Part shown: positions 2,959-7,476 of the stretch, in pieces
Layout: every line of letters begins with the position of its first letter
How positions within the stretch are numbered: position 1 is the stretch's first letter
Assembly: GCA_009782025.1 (NCBI GenBank)
Contig: WQUQ01000192.1
Span: 1 to 11,538 of the forward strand
Length of the DNA stretch: 11,538 nt
Source: Desulfobulbus sp.
GTDB taxonomy: Bacteria; Pseudomonadota; Gammaproteobacteria; Burkholderiales; Rhodocyclaceae
Direction: 5' to 3'
The notes under the pieces: generated by a model
What the model was told of the DNA's origin: nothing
The model's input: only the letters and a program-made list of their open reading frames with translations
Databases searched by the model: none
Made by a program: the position numbers and the translations under genes

Positions 2959-3627
2959 ATGTTCAAGATCATCCTGGCGGTCATCGGCCGCGATCTGAAA
3001 CTGGCCATGCGCCGCCAGGCCGACATCGTTTCGGCGCTGTTTTTCTTCATCATCGTGGTCAGCCTGTTCCCGCTCGGCGTCGGTCCCGAACCCGACCTGC
3101 TGCGCAAGCTCGCCCCCGGCGTGCTGTGGGTGGCGGCGCTCCTGGCGACCATGCTGTCGCTGCCGCGCCTGTTTGCCGACGATCACCGCGACGGCACGCT
3201 GGAGCAACTGGCGCTGGCTCCGTATCCGCTTGGCCTCGTCGTCACCGGCAAAGTGATCGCTCACTGGCTTGTTTCCGGCCTGCCGCTGGCGCTGATCGCG
3301 CCGGTGCTCGGCATCCAGTTCGATCTTTCCGCCGAGGCGCTGGTCGTGCTGACCGGATCCATCCTGCTCGGCACGCCAGCTTTGTCCGGCATCGGGGCCA
3401 TCGGCGCGGCGCTGACGCTCGGCTTGCGCGGCGGCGGCGTGCTGTTGTCGCTCCTGGTGCTGCCGCTGTACATTCCGGTGTTAATATTCGGCGCTGGCGC
3501 GGTTGATGCCACGGTGTCCGGTCTGGGGGGGGAAGGACACCTTTCCCTGCTCGCCGCGCTGACTTTCGCCTCACTCGGCTTCGCCCCCTGGGCCTCGGCC
3601 GCCGCCCTCAAAATCGCTCTCGAATGA
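2959..3627 (+). CDS. ccmB: Haem exporter/ABC transporter permease CcmB
   Basis: CcmB is the inner-membrane permease partner of CcmA. The 222-residue protein is strongly hydrophobic, with about six membrane segments and the family segment FADDHRDGTLEQL (72-84) in a cytoplasmic loop. A TTG directly before the ATG (2956) would add one residue, but the ATG at 2959 is preferred because AGGG (2948-2951) lies 7 nt upstream of it. The last codons overlap the ccmC start as ATGA, which suggests translational coupling. An eight-G run (3525-3532) falls within the coding sequence near residue 190. Confidence 0.96.
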   Translation: MFKIILAVIGRDLKLAMRRQADIVSALFFFIIVVSLFPLGVGPEPDLLRKLAPGVLWVAALLATMLSLPRLFADDHRDGTLEQLALAPYPLGLVVTGKVIAHWLVSGLPLALIAPVLGIQFDLSAEALVVLTGSILLGTPALSGIGAIGAALTLGLRGGGVLLSLLVLPLYIPVLIFGAGAVDATVSGLGGEGHLSLLAALTFASLGFAPWASAAALKIALE

Positions 3628-4388
3628 CAGATCGCTTCAATCTCTATCGCTTCGCCTCGCCGGCGACCTTTTATCCGCTGGCCGGCAGGATGATCCCGTG
3701 GTTCGTCGTCGCCGCCGTCATTTTCGGCGCGGCCGGGCTGTGGTTCGGCATGCTGGTCGCGCCAACCGACTTCCAGCAGGGCGAGGGCTACCGGATCATT
3801 TTCATCCACGTTCCGGCCTCGTGGATGTCGATGTTCATCTATCTGGTCATGGCTTTCTGGGCGGCCATCGGTCTCGCCTTCAACACCCGCCTGTCGGGCA
3901 TGATGACCCAGGCGCTGGCCCCGACCGGCGCGCTGATGGCCTTTCTCTCGCTATGGACCGGCGCGCTGTGGGGCAAGCCGATGTGGGGCGCGTGGTGGGT
4001 CTGGGATGCCCGGCTGACCTCGGAACTGATCCTGCTCTTTCTCTACATCGGCTACCTGGCGCTGACCGCCGCCATCGACGACACGCGCCGCGCCGACAAG
4101 GCCGGGGCGCTATTGCTGCTGGTTGGCGTGGTGAATATCCCGATCATCTATTTCTCGGTCAAATGGTGGAACACGCTGCACCAGGGGTCGAGCGTCAATT
4201 TCGCCAAATCGTCGATGGCCGTCACCATGCTCTGGGGCATGCTGCTGATGGCGCTGTGCTTCTGGATGTATTCGATTGCCGTGGCGCTCGCCCGCGTGCG
4301 CACCATCATGCTCGAACGCGAACGCAACACCGACTGGGCGCGGGCGGAACTGGCCGGCGAAAAGGCGGTCGGAGAGCAATCATCCTAA
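3624..4388 (+). CDS. ccmC: Haem-handling membrane protein CcmC
   Basis: CcmC presents haem at the periplasmic face of the inner membrane and passes it to CcmE. The 254-residue protein has about six membrane helices and the tryptophan-rich WWD signature (WGAWWVWDARLT, about 121-132). Two periplasmic His residues, His62 (IHVPASW) and His186 (TLHQGSS), match the axial haem ligands known for the family. The start overlaps the ccmB stop as ATGA. The 3' end is altered: the last Ser codon (TCC) and the TAA stop use bases of the inserted element that begins at 4384. The reconstructed ancestral gene would end Glu-Gln-Ser-TGA, one residue shorter. The protein should work normally because only the extreme C-terminus differs. 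Confidence 0.97.
   Translation: MTDRFNLYRFASPATFYPLAGRMIPWFVVAAVIFGAAGLWFGMLVAPTDFQQGEGYRIIFIHVPASWMSMFIYLVMAFWAAIGLAFNTRLSGMMTQALAPTGALMAFLSLWTGALWGKPMWGAWWVWDARLTSELILLFLYIGYLALTAAIDDTRRADKAGALLLLVGVVNIPIIYFSVKWWNTLHQGSSVNFAKSSMAVTMLWGMLLMALCFWMYSIAVALARVRTIMLERERNTDWARAELAGEKAVGEQSS
4371..4376 (+). promoter_or_regulatory. Displaced ribosome binding site, formerly of ccmD
   Basis: GGAGAG lies inside the last codons of ccmC. With the 4384-4617 element and one ATCAT copy removed, its GGAG would sit 7 nt ahead of the ccmD ATG, which is good Shine-Dalgarno spacing. In the present sequence it lies about 245 nt from ccmD and no start codon follows it at a useful distance. Confidence 0.5.
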
Positions 4389-4400
4389 AAACCGTAGTTG
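4379..4400. repeat. Left end of inserted element: target duplication plus terminal inverted repeat
   Basis: ATCAT (4379-4383) is the left copy of the 5-bp direct repeat. It is followed by the 17-bp inverted repeat CCTAAAAACCGTAGTTG (4384-4400), which is the exact reverse complement of 4601-4617. The CCTAA at its tip supplies the present ccmC stop codon. Confidence 0.88.
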
Positions 4401-4617
4401 ACCGCTTGTGATCCTTGAGAAATCCGCATGAACACGACCTTTCCCGGCTTCGATGAGCGTCACCGCATGAGTGAGGCCGCTACGCGCCCGATCAGGCCGC
4501 CCTCGGGCGCGCTGGCGACGTTGCTCCTCCTTGCAGGCATCAGCCTGCCGCGTCGTCGCGCCTTGCCAGCCCACCCGATGCCGACCTACTCCGGCGCGTC
4601 CAACTACGGTTTTTAGG
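4384..4617. mobile_element. 234-bp MITE-like element inserted between ccmC and ccmD
   Basis: The element is bounded by perfect 17-bp terminal inverted repeats and flanked by the 5-bp direct repeat ATCAT (4379-4383 and 4618-4622). It is too small to encode a transposase, so it would need one supplied in trans. The strongest evidence is the empty-site reconstruction: deleting it with one ATCAT gives GAG CAA TCA TGA, in which the ccmC stop and the ccmD start overlap as ATGA, the arrangement seen at five other junctions of this operon. Inside are a 6-bp-stem hairpin (GCAGGC 4534-4539, GCCTGC 4544-4549) and an ORF (4428-4616). The transposase family could not be assigned from the end sequence. Confidence 0.85.
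4428..4616 (+). CDS. Possible 62-codon small ORF inside the inserted element
   Basis: No protein family is recognised. The ORF starts with ATG, has GAG 8-10 nt upstream, and ends at a TAG within the right inverted repeat, 4 nt before the ccmD ATG. Counting its codons, 50 of 62 end in G or C, close to the bias of the surrounding genes. The predicted peptide has a short hydrophobic stretch (ALATLLLLAGI) followed by three Arg and a Pro-rich, aromatic tail ending in NYGF. It may be a real peptide, a decayed fragment of a captured gene, or chance. Its stop position could allow ribosomes to reinitiate at ccmD. Confidence 0.25.
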   Translation: MNTTFPGFDERHRMSEAATRPIRPPSGALATLLLLAGISLPRRRALPAHPMPTYSGASNYGF

Positions 4618-4622
4618 ATCAT
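4601..4622. repeat. Right end of inserted element: terminal inverted repeat plus target duplication
   Basis: CAACTACGGTTTTTAGG (4601-4617) is the exact reverse complement of 4384-4400 and is followed by the second ATCAT (4618-4622). The last two bases of this ATCAT are the first two of the ccmD start codon. The AGG of the repeat end is the only Shine-Dalgarno-like sequence near ccmD, and it is too close to the ATG (3 nt). Confidence 0.88.
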
Positions 4623-4821
4623 GATTTACTGGAACAGCGTCGGCGATTTTCTCGCCATGGGCGGCTACGGCGTGTACGTCTGGGGGTCGTTCGGCGTCAC
4701 CGCGCTGGTGATGGCGGTCGAGCCGATCCTCGTCGTTCGCCAGCGCAAAAACACCATCGCCCGCCTGAAGCGCCAGTTGCGCGCCGAGGAGCGGGCCGCA
4801 ACCCGGAGCACCACGGCATGA
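4621..4821 (+). CDS. ccmD: Haem exporter small subunit CcmD
   Basis: CcmD is a small inner-membrane protein that helps CcmAB and CcmC release haem-loaded CcmE. The 66-residue product shows the family pattern: an N-terminal segment with [14 protein letters not shown], one membrane helix (about residues 22-40), and a basic, charged cytoplasmic tail ([14 protein letters not shown]). The ATG at 4621 is chosen because the protein then begins [10 protein letters not shown] as expected and the ORF upstream in this frame is not CcmD-like. The start codon abuts the inserted element, leaving a poor ribosome site (AGGA ending 2 nt before ATG). The stop overlaps the ccmE start as ATGA. Confidence 0.92.
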
Positions 4822-5487: not shown

Positions 5488-7476
5488 ATGATCCCTGAAC
5501 TCGGCCATTTCGCCCTCATTCTCGCCGCACTGGTCGCGCTGGCGCTCGGCACGCTGCCGCTGATCGGCGCCCATCGCCGGCTGCCGGCCTGGATCGCCCT
5601 GGCCCGTCCCGCCGCCTTCGCCTTCGCCTTGCTGGTGGCCTTCTCTTTCGCCTGTCTGACGCAGGCCTTCATCGTCAACGACTTTTCCGTCGTTTATGTG
5701 GCGCAGCATTCCAATTCGCTATTGCCGACGGTTTATCGCGTCGCCGCCGTCTGGGGCGGTCACGAAGGCTCGCTGCTGCTGTGGATGCTGATGCTGGCCG
5801 GGTGGACCGCCGCCGTGGCGCTGCTCTCGCGCCAGTTGCCGGAGGCCATGACCGCCCGCGTGCTCGGCGCCATGGGCCTCATCGCCTTTGGCTTTCTGCT
5901 CTTCATCCTGTTTACCTCCAACCCGTTCGAGCGCCTGCTGCCGGGCGCGGCCGAGGGGCGCGACCTCAACCCGATGCTGCAAGACCCCGGCCTGGTCATC
6001 CATCCGCCGCTCTTGTACATGGGTTATGTCGGCTTCTCGGTGGCTTATGCCTTTGCCATTGCCGCGCTGCTCTCCGGCCAACTCGACGCCGCCTGGGCGC
6101 GCTGGTCGCGGCCGTGGACGATGGCGGCGTGGATTTTCCTGACCCTGGGCATCGCCATGGGGTCGTGGTGGGCCTACTACGAACTGGGCTGGGGCGGCTG
6201 GTGGTTCTGGGATCCGGTCGAGAATGCCTCATTCATGCCCTGGCTGGTCGGCACGGCGCTGATTCACTCGCTGGCGGTCACCGAAAAGCGCGGCAGCTTC
6301 AAGAACTGGACGGTGCTGCTGGCCATCTCGGCCTTCTCGCTGTCGCTGCTCGGCACCTTTCTGGTGCGCTCCGGCGTGCTGACCTCGGTGCATGCTTTCG
6401 CCACCGACCCGACGCGCGGCATCTTCATCCTCGTCTTTCTCGTCGTCGTGGTCGGCGCGTCGCTGGCGCTGTTCGCCTGGCGCGCCCCGAGCGTCGGCCT
6501 GGGCGGGCGCTTCGGCCTCATTTCGCGCGAATCCATGCTGCTCACCAATAACGTGCTGCTGGTCGTCGCCGCCGCCACGGTGCTGCTCGGCACGCTCTAT
6601 CCGCTCCTGGTCGACGCGCTGGGCATCGGCAAGATTTCGGTCGGCCCGCCCTATTTCGATCTGGTGTTCCGGGTGGTCATGATTCCGCTGTTGTTCCTGC
6701 TCGGCATCGGCCCGTTCGCCCGCTGGAAGGAAGCCTCGCTGCCGGAGATCCTGCGCGCCGTGCGTTGGGCTTTCGCGGTCGGCGTCATCGTCGCCATCGC
6801 CGTACCGCTGCTCTACGGCCGCTGGAACCCGCTGACCGCCCTCGGCCTGCTGCTGGCCGGCTGGATCGCCGCCACTGTCAGCATCAACTTCGTCGACCGC
6901 GTGCGCCAGACGCGCGGCGACGGCGGCTTCCTCCACGCCGCGCTGCGTCAGCCGCGCAGTTTCGTCGGCATGCACCTGGCTCACCTCGGCGTCGCCGTGT
7001 TCGTCGTCGGCGTCACGATGGTCATGAGTTTCGAGGAAGAAAAGGATGTCAAGATGGACGCCGGCGAGTCGGTCGTCGTCGCCGGCTATACCTTCACCTT
7101 CCGCGGCGTGCATCAGGTCGACGGCCCCAATTACAAGGCCGCCCAGGGGCAGTTCGAGTTGAGCCGGGATGGCCGCTTGCTGCGCCAGTTGACGCCGGAA
7201 AAGCGCAACTACGTCTCCGGCGGCATGCCGATGACCGAGGCCGCGATCGACGCCGGCTTTCTGCGCGATGTCTATGTCTCGCTCGGCGAACCGATCGACC
7301 CCGGCCAGCCGGAAGGCGCCTGGGCCGTGCGCGTCTATTACAAACCCTTCGTCGACTGGATCTGGGGCGGCTGTCTGCTGATGGCGTGCGGCGGCCTCTG
7401 GGCCATGCTCGACCGCCGTTACCGCCTGAAGGCGCGCAGCGCCGCTCGCCTGCCCGCCGGGAGCCAAACCGCATGA
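5488..7476 (+). CDS. ccmF: Haem lyase membrane protein CcmF
   Basis: CcmF is the large inner-membrane subunit of the cytochrome c synthetase. It takes haem from CcmE and, with CcmH and CcmI, attaches it to the CxxCH motif of apocytochromes. The 662-residue protein is polytopic and carries the WWD signature WGGWWFWDPVENAS (235-248). His172, His260 and His302 and a fourth His at 496 or 499 match the conserved haem-ligand histidines of the family. A large periplasmic domain lies at about 515-635, before the last helix. The ATG at 5488 gives the typical start MIPELGHFAL, though the ribosome site is weak. The gene ends overlapping ccmG as ATGA. Confidence 0.98.
   Translation: MIPELGHFALILAALVALALGTLPLIGAHRRLPAWIALARPAAFAFALLVAFSFACLTQAFIVNDFSVVYVAQHSNSLLPTVYRVAAVWGGHEGSLLLWMLMLAGWTAAVALLSRQLPEAMTARVLGAMGLIAFGFLLFILFTSNPFERLLPGAAEGRDLNPMLQDPGLVIHPPLLYMGYVGFSVAYAFAIAALLSGQLDAAWARWSRPWTMAAWIFLTLGIAMGSWWAYYELGWGGWWFWDPVENASFMPWLVGTALIHSLAVTEKRGSFKNWTVLLAISAFSLSLLGTFLVRSGVLTSVHAFATDPTRGIFILVFLVVVVGASLALFAWRAPSVGLGGRFGLISRESMLLTNNVLLVVAAATVLLGTLYPLLVDALGIGKISVGPPYFDLVFRVVMIPLLFLLGIGPFARWKEASLPEILRAVRWAFAVGVIVAIAVPLLYGRWNPLTALGLLLAGWIAATVSINFVDRVRQTRGDGGFLHAALRQPRSFVGMHLAHLGVAVFVVGVTMVMSFEEEKDVKMDAGESVVVAGYTFTFRGVHQVDGPNYKAAQGQFELSRDGRLLRQLTPEKRNYVSGGMPMTEAAIDAGFLRDVYVSLGEPIDPGQPEGAWAVRVYYKPFVDWIWGGCLLMACGGLWAMLDRRYRLKARSAARLPAGSQTA

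Follow-up and report, generated by a model that had tools for sequence, protein, structure and literature searches.

The window, that is, the whole stretch of 11,538 nucleotides analysed here (contig WQUQ01000192.1 of a Desulfobulbus sp. assembly placed in the Rhodocyclaceae by GTDB), carries a ccm operon. Eight of its proteins were tested; seven belong to this operon (CcmA, CcmB, CcmC, CcmD, CcmE, a CcmF/NrfE-type lyase and a DsbE-type protein) and the eighth is NapF. A 234-bp element separates ccmC from ccmD and was studied with two covariance models, R1, built from 21 copies of the element, and R2, a core-only model. The features of the junction, in window coordinates, are as follows.

3624..4388, plus strand: ccmC, one serine longer, its stop provided by the element
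4379..4383, no strand: left target duplication ATCAT (sequence; empty sites in relatives)
4384..4617, minus strand (folded, selected strand): whole 234-bp element (R1 212.4 bits on minus against 29.6 on plus; this copy belongs to the R1 training set, so the score is not independent)
4384..4400, plus strand: 17-bp left terminal inverted repeat, pairing with the right one in stem P1
4460..4474, minus strand: small hairpin P3 (TCAC...GTGA), in the 21-copy consensus, not in the 36-copy consensus
4481..4599, minus strand: arm P2 of the fold (R2 match; covariation)
4518..4565, minus strand: Correia-type core CAAGGCGC...GCAACG within P2 (sequence alignment; R2 matches)
4601..4617, minus strand: 17-bp right terminal inverted repeat, the partner of the left one in stem P1
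4618..4622, no strand: right target duplication ATCAT (sequence)
4621..4821, plus strand: ccmD, its start codon adjoining the right end of the element

The original prediction described a 234-bp MITE-like element with perfect 17-bp ends between two ATCAT repeats at this junction, and our analysis recovered all of these features. An inverted-repeat search of positions 4300-4700 returned a single pair, 4379-4405 with 4596-4622 (27 nt, 89%), and the perfect 17-bp ends lie within it; the element's ends read CCTAAAAACCGTAGTTG. Removal of the element and one ATCAT rebuilds the empty site GAGCAATCATGATTT, and the proposal that its stop/start overlap was the older state was borne out by relatives. Each of the 17 congeneric genomes in which ccmC was matched has an ATGA or GTGA ccmC/ccmD junction without an insert (the sample held 18 congeners besides the host genome, one of which, G160, had no ccmC match; 19 of 20 loci were read, L228 being left out). 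Since all 17 have the empty overlap junction, the insertion is young in its own lineage.

The element was also said to supply the present ccmC stop and to end at the ccmD start. This is indeed the arrangement, as the TAA occupies 4386-4388, inside the left terminal inverted repeat, and the ccmD ATG (4621-4623) overlaps the right ATCAT. The accompanying claim that no gene was destroyed stands for the coding sequences, with ccmD left intact and ccmC gaining one serine and TAA, but does not extend to harmlessness. Through the insertion the Shine-Dalgarno-like GGAGAG (4371-4376) and ccmD have come to be separated by 239 bp, and the AGGA at 4615-4618 that now precedes the ccmD ATG is 2 bases away from it, which is poor spacing. 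Judged from the sequence, an insertion that breaks no gene but parts ccmD from GGAGAG and from the stop/start overlap would not clearly be harmless.

Two plus-strand frames are found in the element. A 62-codon ORF (4428-4616) stops four bases ahead of the ccmD ATG, and a GTG frame (4471-4821) runs out of the element into ccmD. No codon-position signal is seen in these frames, but translational read-in is possible. A small protein encoded by the 62-codon frame could itself be under selection, and retention of the frame in all four full copies of this genome, together with an ORF of at least 55 codons from an ATG at positions 30-60 in 25 of 36 representative copies, is consistent with this. However, variable sites are not in excess at third positions (positions 1/2/3: 11/12/14 in the host's own copies, 14/18/15 in the Thiobacillus-type and 12/14/16 in the Nm33 copies), and element lengths of 231 to 238 shift the frame relative to the ends. 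A coding function was rejected on the variable sites, and we regard selection for such a protein as very improbable.

Additional copies with 5-bp duplications of their own had been suggested as a check, and such copies exist. The host genome (2.36 Mb, 79% complete) contains four full copies at 88-100% identity (contigs C192, C295, C262 and C57). Their duplications are perfect in three cases (ATCAT, ATAAT and ATAAT) and one base off in C262. There are also a 158-bp deleted copy with the duplication TTAAA (C188), a copy split by another repeat (C73) and partial matches on C229, C102 and C277. Because the genome holds further full copies with duplications, the repeat pair at the ccm junction is not due to chance. 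Overall, 84 full-length copies were collected, from which deleted, interrupted or diverged copies and those cut by contig ends (L112, L113, L117 and L121) were excluded. Among the 83 with both flanks (L162 has no left flank), the 5-bp duplication is perfect in 58, has one mismatch in 17, two in 3 and three in 5, and often reads ATNAT or TTNAA.

As is typical of a MITE, the element is short and without a transposase gene, its longest frames showing no coding signal; it has perfect inverted ends and, in the majority of full copies, perfect duplications; and it occurs in dispersed copies, with empty sites at the 17 congeneric ccm junctions. We conclude that the element is a MITE whose insertion into the ccmC/ccmD ATGA overlap took place in this lineage and duplicated 5 bp of the target.

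R1 matched 59 of 150 genomes of the family (E 1e-3), with a best hit of 1e-20 or lower in 27, and 23 of 369 genomes of the class (E 1e-15), the host being included in each count; there was no R1 match in three congeners of the 150-genome sample. The exact left end is present in 53 stretches of named genome records, many of them lacking the second end, and pairs of ends 234-238 bp apart occur, among others, in Nitrosomonas sp. Nm33 (repeatedly), Thiobacillus, Sulfuriferula, a Gallionellales MAG and Thiodiazotropha. The end sequences vary among genomes (CCTAAAAACCG, CCTACATTCCTC, CCTGGATTCCTCGG, CCTTGATTCC) but are largely complementary within each element. Genes beside the copies point away from the element on the left in 56 of 82 cases and on the right in 41 of 82 by crude ORF calls, counts that carry no weight because the same ORF calling got ccmD wrong in the window itself.

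A described Rfam family was rejected as the identity of the element, as a search of eight loci with copies (E up to 1) left the element itself unmatched; the two microRNA hits in L001 lie outside it. Several copies (L120, L129, L124, L125, L130, L056 and positions 6636-6855 of the host's own C73) are interrupted by other short repeats, which are located in or near loops of the fold, namely the apical loop, an internal loop or directly after the arm. A Nitrosovibrio MAG and a Nitrosomonadales MAG also contain 249-250-bp elements (L016, L036, L047, L050 and L063) that share these ends but have an interior which R1 matches only weakly, at about 27-33 bits. These were excluded from alignments A1 and A4; the ends of the 234-bp element may thus bear other interiors too.

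A full-length insertion sequence with like ends had likewise been proposed as a check, and five distinct complete IS1380-like elements were identified among the loci examined (L030 and L172 are the same element, as are L176 and L183, and each pair was counted once). All have CCTA-type ends (CCTANNNNCC..AGTTG) and a perfect 5-bp duplication. The one at L030 measures 1653 bp, shares its left end with the 234-bp element, and has ATCAA on both sides and a 522-aa transposase. In Pfam this protein exceeds the cut-offs for DDE_Tnp_1 and DDE_Tnp_1_4, and in NCBIfam its best family is IS1380, at 136.9, below the cut-off of 180. Its relatives are found in 11 of 150 family genomes (E 1e-20). The L030 insertion sequence is without the folded interior of the 234-bp element, which differs in turn from the IS1380 family, of which we take ISEcp1 to be a member, in that it encodes no transposase.

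No relative of the L030 transposase (E 1e-15) was detected in 39 of 40 genomes carrying the element, and the match in the sole exception is remote (27% identity). A PF13701 partner transposase in the host genome was rejected, there being no PF13701 match in this 79% complete assembly. Since the ends and the duplication length match the IS1380-like type, we consider it most likely that the element was moved in trans by a transposase of this group, which is a candidate group only.

The element's fold consists of stem P1, formed by the paired terminal inverted repeats, and the long arm P2, which bears a conserved core. The minus strand folds more stably in all five copies folded both ways, and R1, in whose training the host's own copies took part, gives the four full copies 212-220 bits on the folded strand against 29-31 on the other. 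To the 36 representatives (clusters at 80% identity, mean pairwise 0.62) RNAalifold assigned 61 pairs, 42 of them changed on both sides, and within the arm helix both-side changes occur in 30 of 34 pairs. Paired cells amount to 94.6% against 79.0 in shuffled alignments, and the covariation score is 0.453 against 0.166, a value reached by none of 500 shuffles; these shuffles leave the relatedness of the sequences partly in, and the structure was derived from the same 36 sequences. When the structure was slid by 1-3 columns, at most 41% of cells were paired and covariation was at most 0.10.

The cells of P2 comprise 803 Watson-Crick, 177 G-U and 11 A-C, where column make-up alone would give 580, 182 and 45, and G-U exceeds A-C in the arm of all 36 sequences. 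The asymmetry is absent in P3 (G-U 10, A-C 14) and in the apical pairs of the arm (1 versus 5). Were the palindrome maintained as a duplex, A-C would not be avoided while G-U is retained. Given the scarcity of A-C beside frequent G-U, the selected form of P2 is one single strand, and for P2 we conclude that the minus-strand arm is under selection in this form. Two stacked wobble pairs (A4 columns 32-127 and 33-126) are kept in 26 and 28 of the 36 sequences. The core has G-A/A-G steps in most copies (A1 columns 61-62 with 94-95 and 64-65 with 91-92), the first of which is replaced by AA/UU in L035 and L054.

These data bear on the view that the interior is inert, its palindromes being homogenised by arm-to-arm correction at the DNA level and its resemblance to other cores reflecting GC-rich convergence. 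A palindromic look is common in MITE interiors, and background-level hits of the raw core pattern in coding DNA occur in many genomes, as this view would have it. However, arm-to-arm correction acts alike on both strands and would not leave 177 G-U against 11 A-C, and the high-copy genomes described below stand far above their controls. An inert interior was rejected on the G-U/A-C asymmetry and on the covariation relative to shuffles, and we consider it improbable.

The core is also found outside the 234-bp family. Weak R1 matches in the host genome (C231, 27.5 bits; C140, 26.3 bits) led to a second MITE-like element with the same core. This second family (L114, positions 374-535; L115, positions 362-528) is 162-167 bp long and has the ends AGAGCCTGTTTGCGATC, a type that presumably recalls IS5-like elements. 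Because both of its members are in the training set of R2, their R2 scores hold by construction, whereas their R1 scores are independent. R2 matched 24 of 41 relatives, the host genome included.

An outer inverted-repeat pair of at least 15 nt surrounds the core in 31 of 42 loci examined; in six of the 42 no outer pair was found, and the remainder are either unclear cases or members of the 234-bp family. The core-bearing elements have about a dozen end sequences, of at least six clearly unlike types; examples are CCTAAAAACCG (the 234-bp family), GGGCCTGTT, AGAGCTCATTTCAT, an AGTG type, GGAACCTCT and TTAACCCGGCAAC. Because some end sequences are alike, there are fewer independent transposase types than end sequences. 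The elements are either about 160-170 bp long, with one core, or 256-273 bp long, and at 14 loci of the latter size two cores stand head to head. Both core copies seen in one genome (G184; L271 and L272) occupy the spacer between a tRNA-Ile and a tRNA-Ala gene, a gene order typical of rRNA operons, and lack recognised outer inverted repeats.

The strand preference recurs in these cores, the core strand being the more stable in 52 of 60 outside the 234-bp family (a set that excludes L386 and L390 as members of that family and keeps two of the three L292 matches and the minus-strand match of L379, all likely due to chance). Mid-stem positions are paired in 144 of 182 cases in 26 typed cores, against 108.7 with shuffled partners and a maximum of 125 in 2000 shuffles; the minus-strand core of L259 was framed wrongly in this set, and some end types occur in it twice. 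The cores share an AAGGC/AACGCN internal loop, a stem of about 7 bp, a second internal loop and an apical hairpin. Either common descent or repeated convergence may account for the cores as a whole, and the shared architecture favours one module.

Counts of the plain core pattern were set against a reversed-pattern control. Coding DNA is hit by the raw pattern as well; of the 200 of 369 and the 102 of 150 genomes with a match, many do not rise above the control, and weight was given to high-copy genomes alone. These include G352 (105 versus 1), G412 (60 versus 1), G273 (54 versus 2) and G535 (52 versus 0) and, outside the class, two genomes of a family in the same phylum, f208 (G680, 52 versus 0; G684, 31 versus 1). 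Across five f208 genomes (G680, G684, G635, G632 and G676) the pattern was seen at 13 to 52 places, with controls of 0-1.

The closest known system is the Correia element (CREE, NEMIS) of Neisseria, also small and non-autonomous, whose core ACAAGGCGA...GGCAACGCC has the same architecture. R2 was run (E up to 1) on 12 loci of IMG/VR contigs that show paired Correia ends. Three matched, all of the 106-107-bp form, of which four had been fetched: L292 and L306 at 1.6e-7, which represent the same insertion, and L297 at 0.019. A Correia-like element in L327 was found at E 7e-4 (172 kb searched, as for 1.6e-7). R2 missed seven 155-156-bp elements, in which the core is interrupted, a 69-bp element and L312. 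The ends of Correia elements, TATAGTGGATTAA, are unlike those of the 234-bp element, which we class as sharing the Correia core rather than as a CREE itself.

Passages of PMC2649163 give Correia lengths of 104-108 or 153-157 bp, state that the 26-bp Correia repeat was known from Neisseria alone and that the mobilising mechanism had yet to be determined in 2009, and describe the transcribed element as bound, and cut or protected, by RNase III. Stable transcripts are noted in part of a 2024 MITE review (PMC10969869). Excerpts of open-licence PMC text contained no statement of this core outside Neisseria; searches of that text with the core strings plus inverted repeat gave no match, and no paper, by title, dealt with an element with these end strings. 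The elements in the portions seen of PMC9012009 and PMC12542641 differ from the 234-bp element.

REP, REPIN and BIME sequences resemble the core in being strand-specific hairpins at high copy, some paired head to head. In contrast, the present core is about 50 nt long, has its own motif and is mostly enclosed by long inverted ends.

Based on these observations, we propose, with a probability of roughly 60%, that the element's interior is a Correia-type structured module, probably RNA, within an IS1380-like-ended MITE, and that its core is common to MITEs with different ends. The fold might instead act as single-stranded DNA during replication or transfer, read by a DNA enzyme as attC and REP hairpins are, with the core spreading at the DNA level. 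The G-U/A-C asymmetry is expected for folded single-stranded DNA too, and both the head-to-head pairs in many elements and the cores without recognised ends between the tRNA genes would suit it. Long inverted ends and duplications at most elements, however, fit ordinary double-strand transposition of the whole element, and the conserved stacked wobble pairs fit RNA better, to which such pairs are thermodynamically better suited. We therefore think a DNA-level fold unlikely.

Under the Correia-type RNA reading, a MITE that inserted into the ccmC/ccmD overlap, presumably after movement in trans by an IS1380-like transposase, would have brought in a minus-strand module, its stem P1 made by the terminal repeats and its arm P2 by the core-bearing helix. 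The selected strand would more likely act as RNA from read-through transcription than as folded single-stranded DNA. By analogy with the Correia element, its likeliest action would be as a site for double-stranded RNA processing or protein binding, which may help the carrier elements to be tolerated or kept. In the window, the ccm mRNA would bear the complement of the selected strand. Because this complement should still be able to form the perfect terminal stem, we predict that the mRNA is cleaved between the two genes and that ccmD loses its translational coupling.

MITE interiors are mostly regarded as leftovers; here one core holds a single-strand fold while the transposon end types around it change. 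Because the same folded core sits in differently ended small mobile elements, our comparisons suggest that the core itself does something worth keeping. Tentatively, and at slightly less than even odds, we extend this to the idea that one single-strand module, with the Neisseria Correia core as a member, raises as RNA or folded single-stranded DNA the survival or spread of carrier MITEs that use different transposases across the Proteobacteria. If true, the core would be a passenger common to unrelated jumping elements. The question of what the Correia core is for becomes testable outside pathogens, in high-copy environmental bacteria, and the covariance model can annotate many unexplained repeats of the Proteobacteria.
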